A stretch of 15,049 bases of DNA from an uncultured beta proteobacterium (lineage in GTDB: Bacteria; Pseudomonadota; Gammaproteobacteria; Burkholderiales; Rhodocyclaceae): positions 1 to 15,049 of the forward strand of contig CAIZHL010000382.1 of assembly GCA_903932755.1 (NCBI GenBank), read 5' to 3'. The translations under genes were made by a program, and so were the position numbers. The notes beneath the pieces are model-generated. The model saw only the letters and a list, made by a program, of their open reading frames with translations. It was not told where the DNA came from and searched no databases. Shown here piece by piece: positions 1 to 12,262 of this stretch (position 1 is the first letter of the stretch; each line of letters opens with the position of its first letter).

Positions 1-201
1 ACCGGCGCCTGCGCCGCCGCGGTGGCCGGCATCCGCCGCGGCCTGCTGGATTCGCCGGTGCGCGTCGCCACGCGCGGCGGCGAACTGTCCATCGTCTGGA
101 ACGGCGCCGGCACCGGTAACGCAACTTCGCCGGTGCTGATGACCGGCCCCGCCGCCACCGTCTTCAGCGCCGAAATCGAACTCCCGAACAACCTCACATG
201 A
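1..201 (+). CDS. dapF: Diaminopimelate epimerase, C-terminal end (5' part outside the window)
   Basis: The first 66 codons, open from base 1 to a TGA at 199-201, match the C-terminal part of diaminopimelate epimerase. This cytosolic enzyme interconverts LL- and meso-diaminopimelate for lysine and peptidoglycan synthesis. The visible TGACAA segment at the very start carries the conserved cysteine that acts as one of the two catalytic bases in this family (family knowledge). It is followed by the usual G-L-L-x-S-P-V-R-V and G-G-E-L-x-I-x-W strands. The following genes, DUF484 and xerC, occur in the same order after dapF in many proteobacteria (dapF-yigA-xerC in enteric bacteria), which supports the call. 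The 5' end lies outside the window, so nothing can be said about its start or promoter. Confidence 0.93.
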
Positions 202-211
202 GACCTAACCT

Positions 212-340
212 ATGAAGACCTATCCCCCAGCCCCCTTTCCCATGGAAAGGGGTGACAGTGGTTCAGCCGCAAAAAACCCGCGGCTTCCGTATTGTTGTAT
301 GCACGCCGCCTTGGGGCGGCCCGACGGAGGCGTGAAATGA
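212..340 (+). other. Possible 42-codon leader ORF carried by the repeat
   Basis: An ATG at 212 opens a frame that runs through the whole repeat and stops with TGA at 338-340. That stop overlaps the ATG (337-339) of the DUF484 gene as ATGA. It is the same frame in which the second repeat copy is translated inside the ROK kinase. The two encoded peptides share a P-P-x-P start and an A-L-G-R-P-x-G-G end. No Shine-Dalgarno precedes the ATG, and GC-rich DNA often holds chance open frames. Expression is therefore doubtful, and the entry mainly records the frame relation. Confidence 0.2.
218..333 (+). repeat. Structured palindromic repeat, copy A (three hairpins)
   Basis: This block fills the gap between dapF and the DUF484 gene. 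It folds into three hairpins. The first has a 9-bp stem, 232-240 with 244-252, and loop CAT. The second has a 6-bp stem, 265-270 with 280-285. The third has a 6-bp stem, 305-310 with 315-320, and loop TTGG. The same order of hairpins and linkers recurs at about 11759-11867 in the same orientation. The first stem differs between copies but keeps pairing: a T-A pair here is a C-G pair there. The 3' edge of the element seems to supply the GGAGG Shine-Dalgarno (326-330) of the next gene. It is a dispersed non-autonomous repeat of unknown origin. Confidence 0.75.
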
Positions 341-987
341 AATCAGAAGACGTCGCCCACTACCTCCAGGACCACCCCGAATTCTTCGAGCAGTATTCCG
401 ACTTGCTGAATCTGGTGACCCTGTCCGACCCGCACAGCGGACGCGCCATCTCGATCACCGAAAAGCAGATGCTCAAGCTGCGCGACAAGGTGCGCGCGCT
501 GGAAGCCAAGCTGGCCGAACTGATCACCTTCGGCGAAGAAAACGACGTCATCTCCGGCAAGGTGCACGGCCTCGCCGTGGCGCTGGTCGTCGCCGGCGAC
601 CATGCGGGCGTGTCGCGCGCCTTGTATTCGCACCTGGGCGGCGCCTTCGCCGTGCCGCACGTGACGCTGCGCCTGTGGGGCGCCAGCCGGGGCGACGGCC
701 TCGAGTTCGAGCCGGTCACGGACGCCGTCAAGGCCTTCGCCTCCGGCCTGCAACAACCTTACTGCGGCGCCGTGGCCGGGCAGGAATCGCTGGCCTGGTT
801 CGGCGACTCGGCGGCGCACCTGCGCTCGATGACGCAGGTCGCGCTGCGCGAACCGGGCGGCACCTGCTTCGGCCTGCTGGTGATGGCCAGCGAGGAAGCA
901 CACCGCTTCTATCCGGAGCTCGGCACGCTGTACCTGGAACGCATCGGCGACATGGCCGCGGCCGCATTGCTGCGCGTCGCCGACTGA
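337..987 (+). CDS. DUF484 family protein (YigA-like)
   Basis: This 216-residue soluble protein belongs to the DUF484 family, which has a GAF-like fold. Members usually lie between dapF and xerC, as here, but their biochemical role is not established. The N-terminus shows the family's helical opening (V-A-x-Y-L-x-x-H-P-E-F-F, residues about 6-17). A coiled region rich in K, R and E follows at about residues 45-70, then a GAF-like region from about 90 to the end. The start was chosen at ATG 337 because GGAGG at 326-330 stands 6 bases upstream. An upstream ATG at 292 would add 15 arginine-rich residues encoded by repeat DNA, which is unlikely. Translation of xerC begins 74 bases after the stop, probably on the same transcript. 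The gap (988-1061) holds two small hairpins, 1009-1021 and 1024-1040. Confidence 0.88.
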   Translation: MKSEDVAHYLQDHPEFFEQYSDLLNLVTLSDPHSGRAISITEKQMLKLRDKVRALEAKLAELITFGEENDVISGKVHGLAVALVVAGDHAGVSRALYSHLGGAFAVPHVTLRLWGASRGDGLEFEPVTDAVKAFASGLQQPYCGAVAGQESLAWFGDSAAHLRSMTQVALREPGGTCFGLLVMASEEAHRFYPELGTLYLERIGDMAAAALLRVAD

Positions 988-2394: not shown

Positions 2395-3006
2395 TCAGGT
2401 CTGCGCCAAATGGCCCTCTGCCAGCGCCGCGCGATAGATCCGCAGGGCCGCCTGGGCGTCGTCCGCGGCGTAGAGCATCTGGCGTTCGGTCAGGCGCGGG
2501 TGGGACCAGTTGGAGGTGGTGATGTGCTTGGATTTCTGCATGCGGCGGCCCAGGTAGCGCGCCACCGCCGTCTTCGCGCCCATGGCCTGTTTCGGCTTTT
2601 CGCCGGGAAGCGCGCGCGAAAGATCGAGGATGCCTTGCGCCTCGATGCCGAGCCGGGCGCGCAGCTGGGCGAGGTCGCTGCCGAGGCCGAAACCGACTTT
2701 GAGGATCTGGCGCGACTCGAGGATCTGCCGCAGGCCGGAGCAATCCATCTGCGGCCTGACCGGAAACAGGTAAACCCGCTCTTCGGTCGCCAGCTGGATC
2801 AGGTGCGGTCCGGTGGACACCTCGCCCTTGGCGAAGGTCGGCTTCGCCTCGGTGTCGAAGCCGAGCACGGCTTCGGCCAGCAGCAACCGGCAGGCATCGG
2901 CCGCGGCGGCCGGCGAATCTGCCAGCACCACGTCGGCAATGGCGATTCCCTGATACAGGGGCAGTTCGACAGCGGCGGCGGGTTCCGGGGTCACATTAAG
3001 TTCCAT
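2395..3006 (-). CDS. 3'-5' exonuclease of the DEDDy (RNase D-like) family
   Basis: This 203-residue protein is a single-domain DnaQ-like 3'-5' exonuclease of the RNase D / WRN-exonuclease type. It is expected to remove nucleotides from RNA or DNA 3' ends with two metal ions. The acidic residues are visible: D51 and E53 in F-D-T-E (Exo I), D111 in G-S-D-L (Exo II), and Y179 with D183 in Y-A-A-D-D (Exo III, DEDDy type). It lacks the HRDC domains of full-length RNase D, so it is a short stand-alone form and substrate cannot be assigned. The ATG at 3006 was chosen because the protein resembles the family from there on. The frame stays open upstream to 3192, but that part is tandem-repeat DNA. The upstream repeat array touches the start codon and occupies the divergent promoter region shared with the gene at 3191. 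Confidence 0.85.
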   Translation of the reverse strand: MELNVTPEPAAAVELPLYQGIAIADVVLADSPAAAADACRLLLAEAVLGFDTEAKPTFAKGEVSTGPHLIQLATEERVYLFPVRPQMDCSGLRQILESRQILKVGFGLGSDLAQLRARLGIEAQGILDLSRALPGEKPKQAMGAKTAVARYLGRRMQKSKHITTSNWSHPRLTERQMLYAADDAQAALRIYRAALAEGHLAQT

Positions 3007-3007
3007 C

Positions 3008-3150
3008 CCGATATTATGTCCCGGCGGGACGCCGGGACGGTATCCCCTTGTGGGGTTTGTCCCCCCCCAGAGGTGGGGACGGTATCCCCTTGCGGGATAT
3101 GTCCCCGCGGGATACCGGGATGGCATCACCCCGGCGGGATATCGCAAACG
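3008..3150. repeat. Tandem array of about 42-bp hairpin units in a divergent promoter region
   Basis: Two near-identical units begin at 3034 and 3076 with GGGACGGTATCCCCTTG and end in GTCCCC (3064, 3106). A diverged third unit begins at 3117 (GGGATGGCATC). The tail of a fourth lies at about 3008-3033. The spacing is 42 and 41 bases. Each unit contains small inverted repeats, for example 3018-3022 with 3026-3030 and TATCCC with GGGATA in the second unit. The array lies between the exonuclease start codon (-) and the small Cys/His gene (+), so it probably overlaps their promoters. A TAAAAT at 3154-3159 just after the array could be a -10 element for the + gene, but no good -35 is seen. Confidence 0.8.
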
Positions 3151-3190
3151 GTTTAAAATCGACACAATTACCTGTCCAGGTCCCATCAGC

Positions 3191-3412
3191 ATGGCTGAAA
3201 CCGCTTTCTGCTACCACTGCCGCCAGCATCATCCGAAGACGGAAATGCGTCAGATCGAAACCAAGGCCGGCAAGCGCTGGCGCTGCATCCGCAGCATCGA
3301 GGCCACCCGCCAGGGTCAGGCCGCGCGCGAAGCCTATGGCCGCCAGGTTTCCGAGATGAACAAGTCCGAGGCGCAAAGCCGCGCCCGCATGTCGAAGCCG
3401 ATCGTCGTCTGA
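3191..3412 (+). CDS. Small Cys/His protein, possible zinc ribbon
   Basis: This 73-residue basic protein starts with a C-Y-H-C-R-Q-H-H cluster (residues about 7-14) and has one more cysteine in W-R-C-I near residue 35. The arrangement could bind one zinc ion, but the ligand set is incomplete compared with a classical four-cysteine ribbon. The C-terminal half is rich in Q, R, A and S and probably helical. I recognise no named family. The start at ATG 3191 is preceded only by a weak CAGG (3177-3180). The frame is open further upstream, but that part is repeat DNA. A lipoprotein amidase gene begins 28 bases after the stop, which allows a shared transcript. Confidence 0.7.
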   Translation: MAETAFCYHCRQHHPKTEMRQIETKAGKRWRCIRSIEATRQGQAAREAYGRQVSEMNKSEAQSRARMSKPIVV

Positions 3413-11284: not shown

Positions 11285-12262
11285 ATGCTCAGGATCGGGA
11301 TAGACCTTGGCGGCACAAAAATTGAAATTGCTTCCTTCAACGAGGATGGCGACGTATTGCTGCGCGAGCGCGTGGCAACGCCGCAGGGCGACTACGCGGC
11401 AACATTGAGGGCGGTAGCCGAACTGGTCGCAGCGGCGGAATCAAGAGCCGGCAGGGGCACGCTAGGCATCGGCATTCCCGGCGCCGAATCGCGCAGCAGC
11501 GGACTGATCAAGAACGCCAACTCGACCTGCCTGATCGGCAAGCCGCTGAAGCACGATCTCGAACAATTGCTCCAGTGCGAAGTCCGCCTCGCCAATGATG
11601 CCAACTGCTTCGCCCTCTCGGAAGCCATCGACGGTGCGGGCACCGGCGCGCAGGTGGTGTTCGGCGTGATCCTCGGCACCGGCGTCGGCGGCGGCATCGT
11701 GATCGACGGCAAGGTTCTGGCCGGCGCCAACGCCATCGCCGGCGAGTGGGGCCACAACTACCTTCCCCCCGACCCCCTTCCCGAGGAAGGGGGTGACGAC
11801 GGGTCGCCGCTACGCGGCTCCGGTGTATTGGCCGTTCCCGCCTTGGGGCGGCCCGGCGGCGGGAACCCCGCTGCCGAGCTAACCTGCTACTGCGGACGCA
11901 AGGGCTGCATCGAGCTTTATCTTTCCGGCCCCGGCCTCGCCGCCGACCATCGCCGTGTCGCCAGCGCCGACTTTTCCCCGGCAACCATCGTCGCGCGCGC
12001 CGCCGCCGGGGATGCCGACTGCGAAGCCACGCTGCAACGCTACGAAGCCCGCCTGGCCCGCGCGCTGGCGCAGGTCATCAACATCCTCGATCCGGATGTC
12101 ATCGTGCTCGGCGGCGGCATGTCGAACATCGACCGGCTTTACGCAAACGTGCCGCGCCTGTGGGGCGGGCATGTCTTTTCCGACCAGGTGGCGACCCGCC
12201 TGCTGAAGCACCGCCATGGCGATTCGTCGGGCGTGAGAGGAGCCGCATGGCTATGGAAATGA
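11285..12262 (+). CDS. ROK family sugar kinase (fructokinase / N-acetylglucosamine kinase type) with in-frame repeat insertion
   Basis: This 325-residue ROK kinase should phosphorylate a hexose or N-acetylhexosamine with ATP in the cytosol. Seen are the phosphate-binding D-L-G-G-T-K (7-12), the catalytic D105 in A-N-D-A-N, the second ATP loop G-T-G-V-G-G-G, and the zinc site: H157 in G-E-W-G-H-N and C201, C203, C208 in C-Y-C-G-R-K-G-C-I-E. The spacing from H157 to C201 is about twice that usual in Mak-type kinases. The excess, about residues 160-195, is encoded by a dispersed repeat also found near dapF (about 11759-11867). The frame is kept and all catalytic motifs survive, so the enzyme may still work. 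The start at ATG 11285 is the first in frame; its Shine-Dalgarno is weak. The stop overlaps the MOSC gene start. The substrate cannot be fixed from sequence. Confidence 0.9.
   Translation: MLRIGIDLGGTKIEIASFNEDGDVLLRERVATPQGDYAATLRAVAELVAAAESRAGRGTLGIGIPGAESRSSGLIKNANSTCLIGKPLKHDLEQLLQCEVRLANDANCFALSEAIDGAGTGAQVVFGVILGTGVGGGIVIDGKVLAGANAIAGEWGHNYLPPDPLPEEGGDDGSPLRGSGVLAVPALGRPGGGNPAAELTCYCGRKGCIELYLSGPGLAADHRRVASADFSPATIVARAAAGDADCEATLQRYEARLARALAQVINILDPDVIVLGGGMSNIDRLYANVPRLWGGHVFSDQVATRLLKHRHGDSSGVRGAAWLWK
11759..11867 (+). repeat. Structured palindromic repeat, copy B, inside the ROK kinase gene
   Basis: Three hairpins follow the same order as in copy A near base 218. The first is a 9-bp stem, 11773-11781 with 11785-11793 (loop CGA). 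The second is a 5-bp stem, 11806-11810 with 11814-11818. The third is a 5-bp stem, 11838-11842 with 11847-11851 (loop TTGG). The shared stretch GCCTTGGGGCGGCCCG lies at the same place in both copies, apart from a few bases. The insertion is translated as a Gly/Pro-rich loop without stops. A longer inverted pair, GTTCCCGCC (11834-11842) with GGCGGGAAC (11858-11866), marks the 3' edge. Confidence 0.78.

Follow-up and report, generated by a model that had tools for sequence, protein, structure and literature searches.

A dispersed three-hairpin repeat lying in frame in a ROK-family kinase gene of a Sulfuritalea-like bacterium

The locus raises the question of how a hairpin repeat that also lies between genes of the same genome came to occupy the reading frame of a sugar kinase gene, and what it does there. 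The window (the whole stretch of DNA that was analysed, 15,049 nucleotides) belongs to a draft assembly (G000; 2.8 Mb in 603 contigs, 70% complete), and the best named matches of the kinase locus are to Sulfuritalea, Sulfurimicrobium and Rhodocyclales assemblies. An earlier note had claimed that a segment within the kinase gene is a second copy of the repeat that fills the gap between dapF and a DUF484 gene, and had suggested that this repeat is mobile. We consider it quite probable that the segment belongs to a family of non-autonomous palindromic elements dispersed in a Sulfuritalea-like lineage, which spread by insertion and at times enter genes in a stop-free frame. The features on which the analysis was based are collected in Table 1.

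Table 1. Repeat copies, hairpins and neighbouring genes in the window
Feature	Position	Strand	Basis
dapF 3' end, left of gap copy	1..201	+	TIGR00652, E 8.8e-9, partial, below cut-off
Second repeat copy, dapF-DUF484 gap	218..336	+	blastn and covariance model
DUF484 gene, right of gap copy	337..987	+	PF04340
ROK-family sugar kinase (fructokinase-like), host of the insert	11285..12262	+	PF00480, E 2.4e-78
Three-hairpin repeat copy, in frame in the ROK kinase, residues 159-195	11759..11868	+	Covariance model 109.8 bits (20 training copies, this one and the gap copy among them) and blastn family
Hairpin H1 of kinase copy, arms ACCCCCTTCC / GGAAGGGGGT	11772..11794	+	MFE fold; covariation over 80 copies
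Hairpin H2 of kinase copy, GCCGC / GCGGC	11806..11818	+	Consensus structure helix 2, 98.4% of cells paired
Hairpin H3 of kinase copy, GTTCCCGCC / GGCGGGAAC, highly conserved loop TTGGGGCGGCCCGGC	11834..11866	+	Multi-copy alignment and covariation

The kinase copy and its counterpart in the window

The NCBIfam model that fits the kinase best is that of fructokinase (NF007108; 381 bits, below the cut-off of 443), and the match falls into two stretches, the first of which ends at residue 161. Codon 159 begins exactly at position 11759 and the reading frame stays open through the repeat, which encodes the in-frame, stop-free, Gly/Pro-rich loop that the earlier note had described. The zinc-ligand positions that were said to be intact are indeed so: H157, C201, C203 and C208 are invariant across 48 aligned kinase sequences, the query included. 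In the AF2 model (mean pLDDT 79.2) the core is good and the loop uncertain, where pLDDT falls below 50 at residues 167-171 and 173-196; it is also low at 65-69 and 73-83. The aligned blocks of two PDB relatives are interrupted at the insert loop. The in-gene repeat is most likely translated, and is predicted to form a flexible Gly/Pro-rich surface loop that is tolerated by the host protein.

With the kinase copy as query, blastn found the gap copy (window 218-330) at E 1.9e-6 and 72% identity, and the alignment shows all three hairpins in both copies and in identical order, so that the shared sequence and hairpin order are borne out. The description as a hairpin repeat holds, but the unit is composed of three hairpins and is not a simple palindrome. 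The 115-nt stretch at 11759-11873 folds better than shuffled sequences (z -2.51; 2/200 as good), and in the single-sequence MFE fold the H2 and H3 stretches of the kinase copy are paired otherwise.

The 3' arm of H3 in the gap copy contains GGAGG, six bases ahead of the ATG of the DUF484 gene (337). A start-codon triplet near the end of a copy is common, with an ATG close by in 39/75 3' flanks (a count without a chance baseline). Because copies often end near a start codon and the H3 arm of the gap copy holds GGAGG, such copies may supply or mask a ribosome site. Elsewhere in the window, other short inverted and direct repeats (GGGACGGTATCCCCTTG and others) are clustered at 3021-3134, at the 5' end of a minus-strand ORF (2395-3192), and the 3' end of an integrase gene (1044-1979), at 1926-1980, is repeated at 2063-2117 with 76% identity, like a duplicated gene tail.

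A dispersed element and the pairing of its stems

A blastn search of the own genome with window 11759-11873 gave matches at 24 places (weakest E 1.5e-4), which rules out a chance match. The covariance model, built from 20 copies, gave 33 matches at E <= 1 in this genome, 29 of them at E <= 0.01; a complete genome of the genus had 47 at the latter threshold. The search of relatives that the earlier note had proposed was equally positive: copies are present in 31/31 examined genomes of the Sulfuritalea-like genus, in numbers from 11 to at least 63 per genome, the high counts being lower bounds as 63 candidates were scored in each. In other genera of the family, 5/6 genomes had at least one match (two of them a single match, E ~0.005), and there were matches in 0/24 genomes from other families of the order. 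When the sample was widened to 300 genomes of the order, with 12 candidates scored per genome, matches at E <= 1e-5 were seen in 6: five of the family, the own genome included, and one (G119) of another family. The copies apparently lie mostly between genes (as judged without systematic annotation), and adjacent (tandem) copies were seen in G001, G119 and G061.

One full copy was found on a viral contig (L324, 87 bits); the kinase copy as query gave no match in named phages or plasmids. At 21/25 viral-contig loci (L323-L347) we recognised, by eye, a shorter related repeat that shares H3, which also occurs in betaproteobacterial plasmids (7 records, of Acidovorax, Azoarcus, Rhodoferax, Variovorax and Burkholderia relatives) and gave no match in named phages. 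This shorter repeat at times lies just before a start codon, and it is in tandem in L337.

For the anatomy of the element we aligned 80 of 88 fetched copies, leaving aside eight from the own genome (L047-L054) that are weak or truncated. The full-length copies measure 104-119 nt and hold the three hairpins in fixed order: H1 is followed by GTGA in nearly all copies, then by H2 and by H3, a stem of variable sequence around a highly conserved loop. With regard to the terminal inverted repeats of a MITE, the 5' and 3' ends of the element are, by eye in the same alignment, not inverted copies of each other. An element that is especially favourable to open reading frames was considered and rejected, the real open fraction per frame being 0.612 vs 0.654 in shuffles; one of the plus frames was open in just 7/79 copies.

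The stems are paired almost throughout the 80 copies. Paired states make up 95.9% of 1790 cells, and double changes were seen in 20/23 pairs, involving 366 cells vs 93 +- 7 in shuffles and 45-80 in slid-partner controls. G-U accounts for 18/1717 standard pairs (1.05%). As a control, 30 cobalamin riboswitches of the same genus were aligned, folded and counted with the same script; in this one family, with its predicted structure and a set more alike than that of the repeat (81% vs 67% mean identity), G-U reached 179/1505 (11.9%). The repeat stems also contain 43 C-A plus A-C mismatches, more than the number of G-U pairs; on the opposite strand these mismatches would read as G-U. Because double substitutions go together with almost no G-U, and C-A and A-C outnumber G-U, the pairing seems to be preserved at the level of DNA, or of the minus strand, and not in plus-strand RNA.

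These counts bear directly on two other explanations. That the element is a functional RNA of the plus strand, such as a regulator, an sRNA or a riboswitch-like leader, and lies in a coding region by coincidence would be in line with the strong covariation, with the ATG triplets in the 3' flanks and with the GGAGG of the gap copy, but the scarcity of G-U relative to the riboswitch and the excess of C-A and A-C argue against it, as do the Rfam results. Rfam gave no match in the window at gathering score and two sub-threshold matches to the element (E 0.17 and 0.86, far under the gathering scores), by which membership of an Rfam RNA family is ruled out. We therefore hold a plus-strand RNA to be very improbable. 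The covariation could, on the other hand, be a matter of mutation only, with template switching re-copying the arms and no selected structure, a reading that concerns the pairing alone and is compatible with our main explanation. Double changes without G-U intermediates are what template switching is stated to predict (PMC8794818), and in the adenosyltransferase copies described below one H2 base pair is flipped between the own genome and six orthologous copies. Against it, the linkers and loops are highly conserved over the 80-copy alignment, suggestive of sequence recognition too, and a decayed H1 in certain coding copies (L223, L229) shows that not every stem is kept up by correction on its own. 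As a full account of the covariation mutation is conceivable but doubtful; as a helper in stem maintenance, template switching is likely.

The Y1/RAYT type of transposase was considered as a required mobiliser and rejected, since six copy-rich genomes (G001, G007, G012, G017, G019 and G035, three of them 98-99% complete) gave no match to PF01797 (Y1_Tnp) at E <= 0.001; most other genomes of the genus had at least one match. No mobilising enzyme was found. Matching of the flanks, as a test for target-site duplication, gave a weak signal in the 75 of 88 copies that passed the anchors (5.58 vs 5.05 +- 0.14 permuted), with p 0.045 when seeded on CTCA (n=19) and p 0.29 when seeded on ATGA (n=11).

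Filled and empty alleles

We compared the kinase with its orthologues, as the earlier note had advised. Among 27 genomes of the genus with the gene, 4 are filled, 19 have an 11-residue loop and 2 a loop of 14-15 residues, one (G021) has a short remnant-like loop and 1 further genome is unread. Typing of the best 120 of 7998 homologues plus the query, which was crude (P0025 was scored as other and is element-derived by eye), gave 29/121 filled (the query and P0001 probably being one locus), 87/121 with the 11-residue loop and 5/121 other; the nearest filled and empty pair among the listed homologues is 96.2% identical outside the loop. Loop-less orthologues thus exist and the genome has many further copies, so neither of the two observations that the earlier note had named as speaking against a mobile repeat was made.

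Two further kinds of insert were observed in the ROK proteins. Another loop of the kinase, around codon 52, holds a different in-frame palindrome in several species (L102, L101, P0003, P0017, P0026 and P0080), with a peptide like VMSLRACARDGIHADG and DNA arms like TCCCTGCGC/GCGCGAGGGA in L102 and TCCCCGG/CCGGGGA in L101, and next to it are further inserts of other sequence. A long-H1 variant of the repeat, with ~69-72 nt nested in frame within H1, occurs in ROK and MurE (P0015 vs P0014, which differ mainly by the 23 residues of this insert; L318, MurE of G018; and, by eye, the 5' part of L012/L039).

Insertions of the repeat were also found in unrelated genes. The PduO-type adenosyltransferase (TIGR00636) is filled in 7 and empty in 21 of the 28 genomes read, HrpA (TIGR01967) is filled in 4 and empty in 26 of 30, and MurE (TIGR01085), in which the element is antisense to the gene, is filled in 3 and empty in 27 of 30; for HrpA and MurE the empty state means a contiguous protein match that skips the insert, with junction DNA aligned for 7 and 6 genomes, respectively. 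Beside the insert, filled alleles differ from empty ones in one or a few host codons at the junction, and target duplication is not evident at the aligned coding junctions. A truncated copy probably lies in the SMC hinge (L050), LolD (P0126) has the repeat peptide as an N-terminal extension, and three SDR-like proteins (P0122, P0123 and P0125) have it internally. The number of coding insertions is a minimum because 31 of the 52 listed spanning-ORF references were scanned with Pfam, many being without any family; L048, L063, L179 and L191, with the element upstream of a domain or between genes, were left uncounted. That orthologous sites occur both filled and empty is the reason why we regard the repeat as spreading by insertion, and the suggestion of mobility is in this respect supported: the repeat behaves like the in-frame insertions of the type known as RPE.

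Selection and history were analysed for the adenosyltransferase. The filled adenosyltransferases are under purifying selection, with a flank pN/pS of 0.10 in the 7 filled and 0.20 in the 21 empty alleles, and the insert is relaxed (pN/pS 0.67); all 7 inserts measure 111 or 114 nt between fixed anchors. rpoB was present in 23 genomes, not including the own genome, and a tree was made of 22 after exclusion of one fragment. In it the 6 filled genomes do not form one clade (AU p 2e-6), and filled G011 is sister to empty G005 with support 100/100. A tree of the adenosyltransferase flanks from 28 genomes likewise rejects one clade of filled alleles (AU p 0.0005). Many branches in these trees are weak (starred inner branches 5/25 in the flank tree and 8/19 in the rpoB tree) and two long-branch rows, G012 and G030, meet each other; the filled label is barely more clustered than shuffled labels (6 changes vs 6.4, and 4 vs 5.3, in the two trees). 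The AU tests reject a purely vertical history, in which the insert arose once and was neither exchanged nor lost. As the filled alleles have derived junction codons in common, the simplest history is one insertion into the adenosyltransferase followed by exchange of filled or empty alleles. The divergence near the adenosyltransferase junction shows no clear local drop that would mark the footprint of an exchange.

That missing drop is among the points in favour of a homing-like spread, in which the element re-inserts at the same codon position of orthologues in other species, with almost no flanking host DNA, and no exchange of alleles is needed. The type-A ROK loops of P0001-P0004 are 0.95-1.0 identical to that of the query in spite of cores at 0.975, 0.901, 0.855 and 0.819 identity, P0003 (filled) and P0026 (empty) have the same residues of their own lineage on both sides of the loop, and pS in the adenosyltransferase is 0.163 in the insert vs 0.397 in the flanks. 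However, the loops of P0005 and P0006 (0.81 and 0.88) are about as divergent as their cores (0.84 and 0.83), the common junction codons of the filled adenosyltransferases point to descent from one filled allele with exchange, constraint on the element at the nucleotide level would reduce insert divergence as well, and a short exchanged tract would be hard to see in ROK because the flanks of the loop are conserved motifs. We therefore regard homing as unlikely; an extension of it, equally improbable, is that a ~110-nt, cargo-free element travels as folded single-stranded DNA (perhaps the minus strand) and, by homing to one codon position in orthologous genes of other species, repeatedly installs the same loop across the genus without inactivating the gene. 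The loop could also be an old functional part of a kinase subfamily, as might be thought from the number of filled ROK proteins, but this reading is refuted, to our mind almost with certainty, because copies of this DNA are scattered over the genome and occur in unrelated genes, and near relatives are without the loop.

In our preferred reading, that of a non-autonomous element spreading by insertion, the element may move as a folded DNA hairpin that is recognised by a protein supplied in trans. The conserved loops and linkers would then be the contact bases and the stems would need only to pair, with replication template switching possibly helping to keep the arms complementary. Filled and empty alleles may pass between species by short-tract recombination, which would give the patchy distribution.

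Relation to known repeat families

The element provides a bacterial case, outside Rickettsia, of a dispersed palindrome that adds a loop of ~25-40 residues (more in the long variant) to catalytic proteins, and these bacteria may show how wandering DNA adds new parts to proteins. The empty alleles in sister species offer a direct way to ask how enzymes tolerate, and might use, selfish DNA, and the near absence of G-U together with hundreds of double substitutions forms a data set for separating hairpin maintenance at the DNA level from that at the RNA level.

Several comparable systems have been described. The likeness to the RPEs, palindromic elements of ~150 bp in frame in unrelated protein genes of Rickettsia (PMC10969869, PMC6649704, PMC2635572), which the earlier note had seen, holds by description: the present element is an in-frame palindromic insertion in unrelated genes (ROK, adenosyltransferase, HrpA and MurE) with empty orthologues. 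The RPEs, however, belong to Alphaproteobacteria and reportedly lose the identity of their repeats with time (PMC6649704), while the stems of the present element stay paired in most copies. The coding inverted repeats of nematomorph mitochondrial genes, which are perfect, up to 284 bp long and gained or lost between species, with template switching as the proposed cause (PMC6649704), are similar as inverted repeats in coding genes but differ in belonging to animal mitochondria. The novelty that the note had seen in such a family did not hold, as intragenic REPs and BRE were already described (PMC3733652, PMC3110155).

REPs are stem-loops of 20-40 bp with a terminal tag, and in-frame intragenic REPs are described in several genera, including Thauera; in GTAG repeats GT pairing is often seen, and GTAG families are associated with transposase genes (PMC3733652). 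The present element resembles them as a short palindromic repeat in frame in protein genes, but it comprises three hairpins over ~110 nt with ~1% G-U in place of a single stem-loop, and it occurs in genomes without a Y1_Tnp match. GTAG or its complement is present anywhere in 20/80 copies and CGTC or its complement in 53/80, and the consensus is without GTAG.

The BRE, a GC-rich repeat of 75-91 bp in Betaproteobacteria, is dispersed, mostly intergenic, at times in tandem and in some cases entirely within a CDS, with loci present in one species and absent in others and with varying tandem numbers (PMC3110155). The present element matches it in host group, GC-richness, dispersal, occasional tandems and copies within CDS, and differs, as far as BRE can be compared by description, in its length of 104-119 nt and its three hairpins; the BRE section of that paper neither aligns filled with empty coding sites nor analyses the pairing. 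The shorter H3-sharing repeat overlaps the host range of BRE and, compared by description, probably is BRE, which would thus share H3 with the present element. In the literature searched (mostly without subscription journals) we found no description of the three-hairpin family, and its sequence strings were likewise unmatched. The kind of element is thus already known from intragenic REPs, RPEs and BRE, and what is new here is the three-hairpin family itself, with its unusually clear filled and empty sites.
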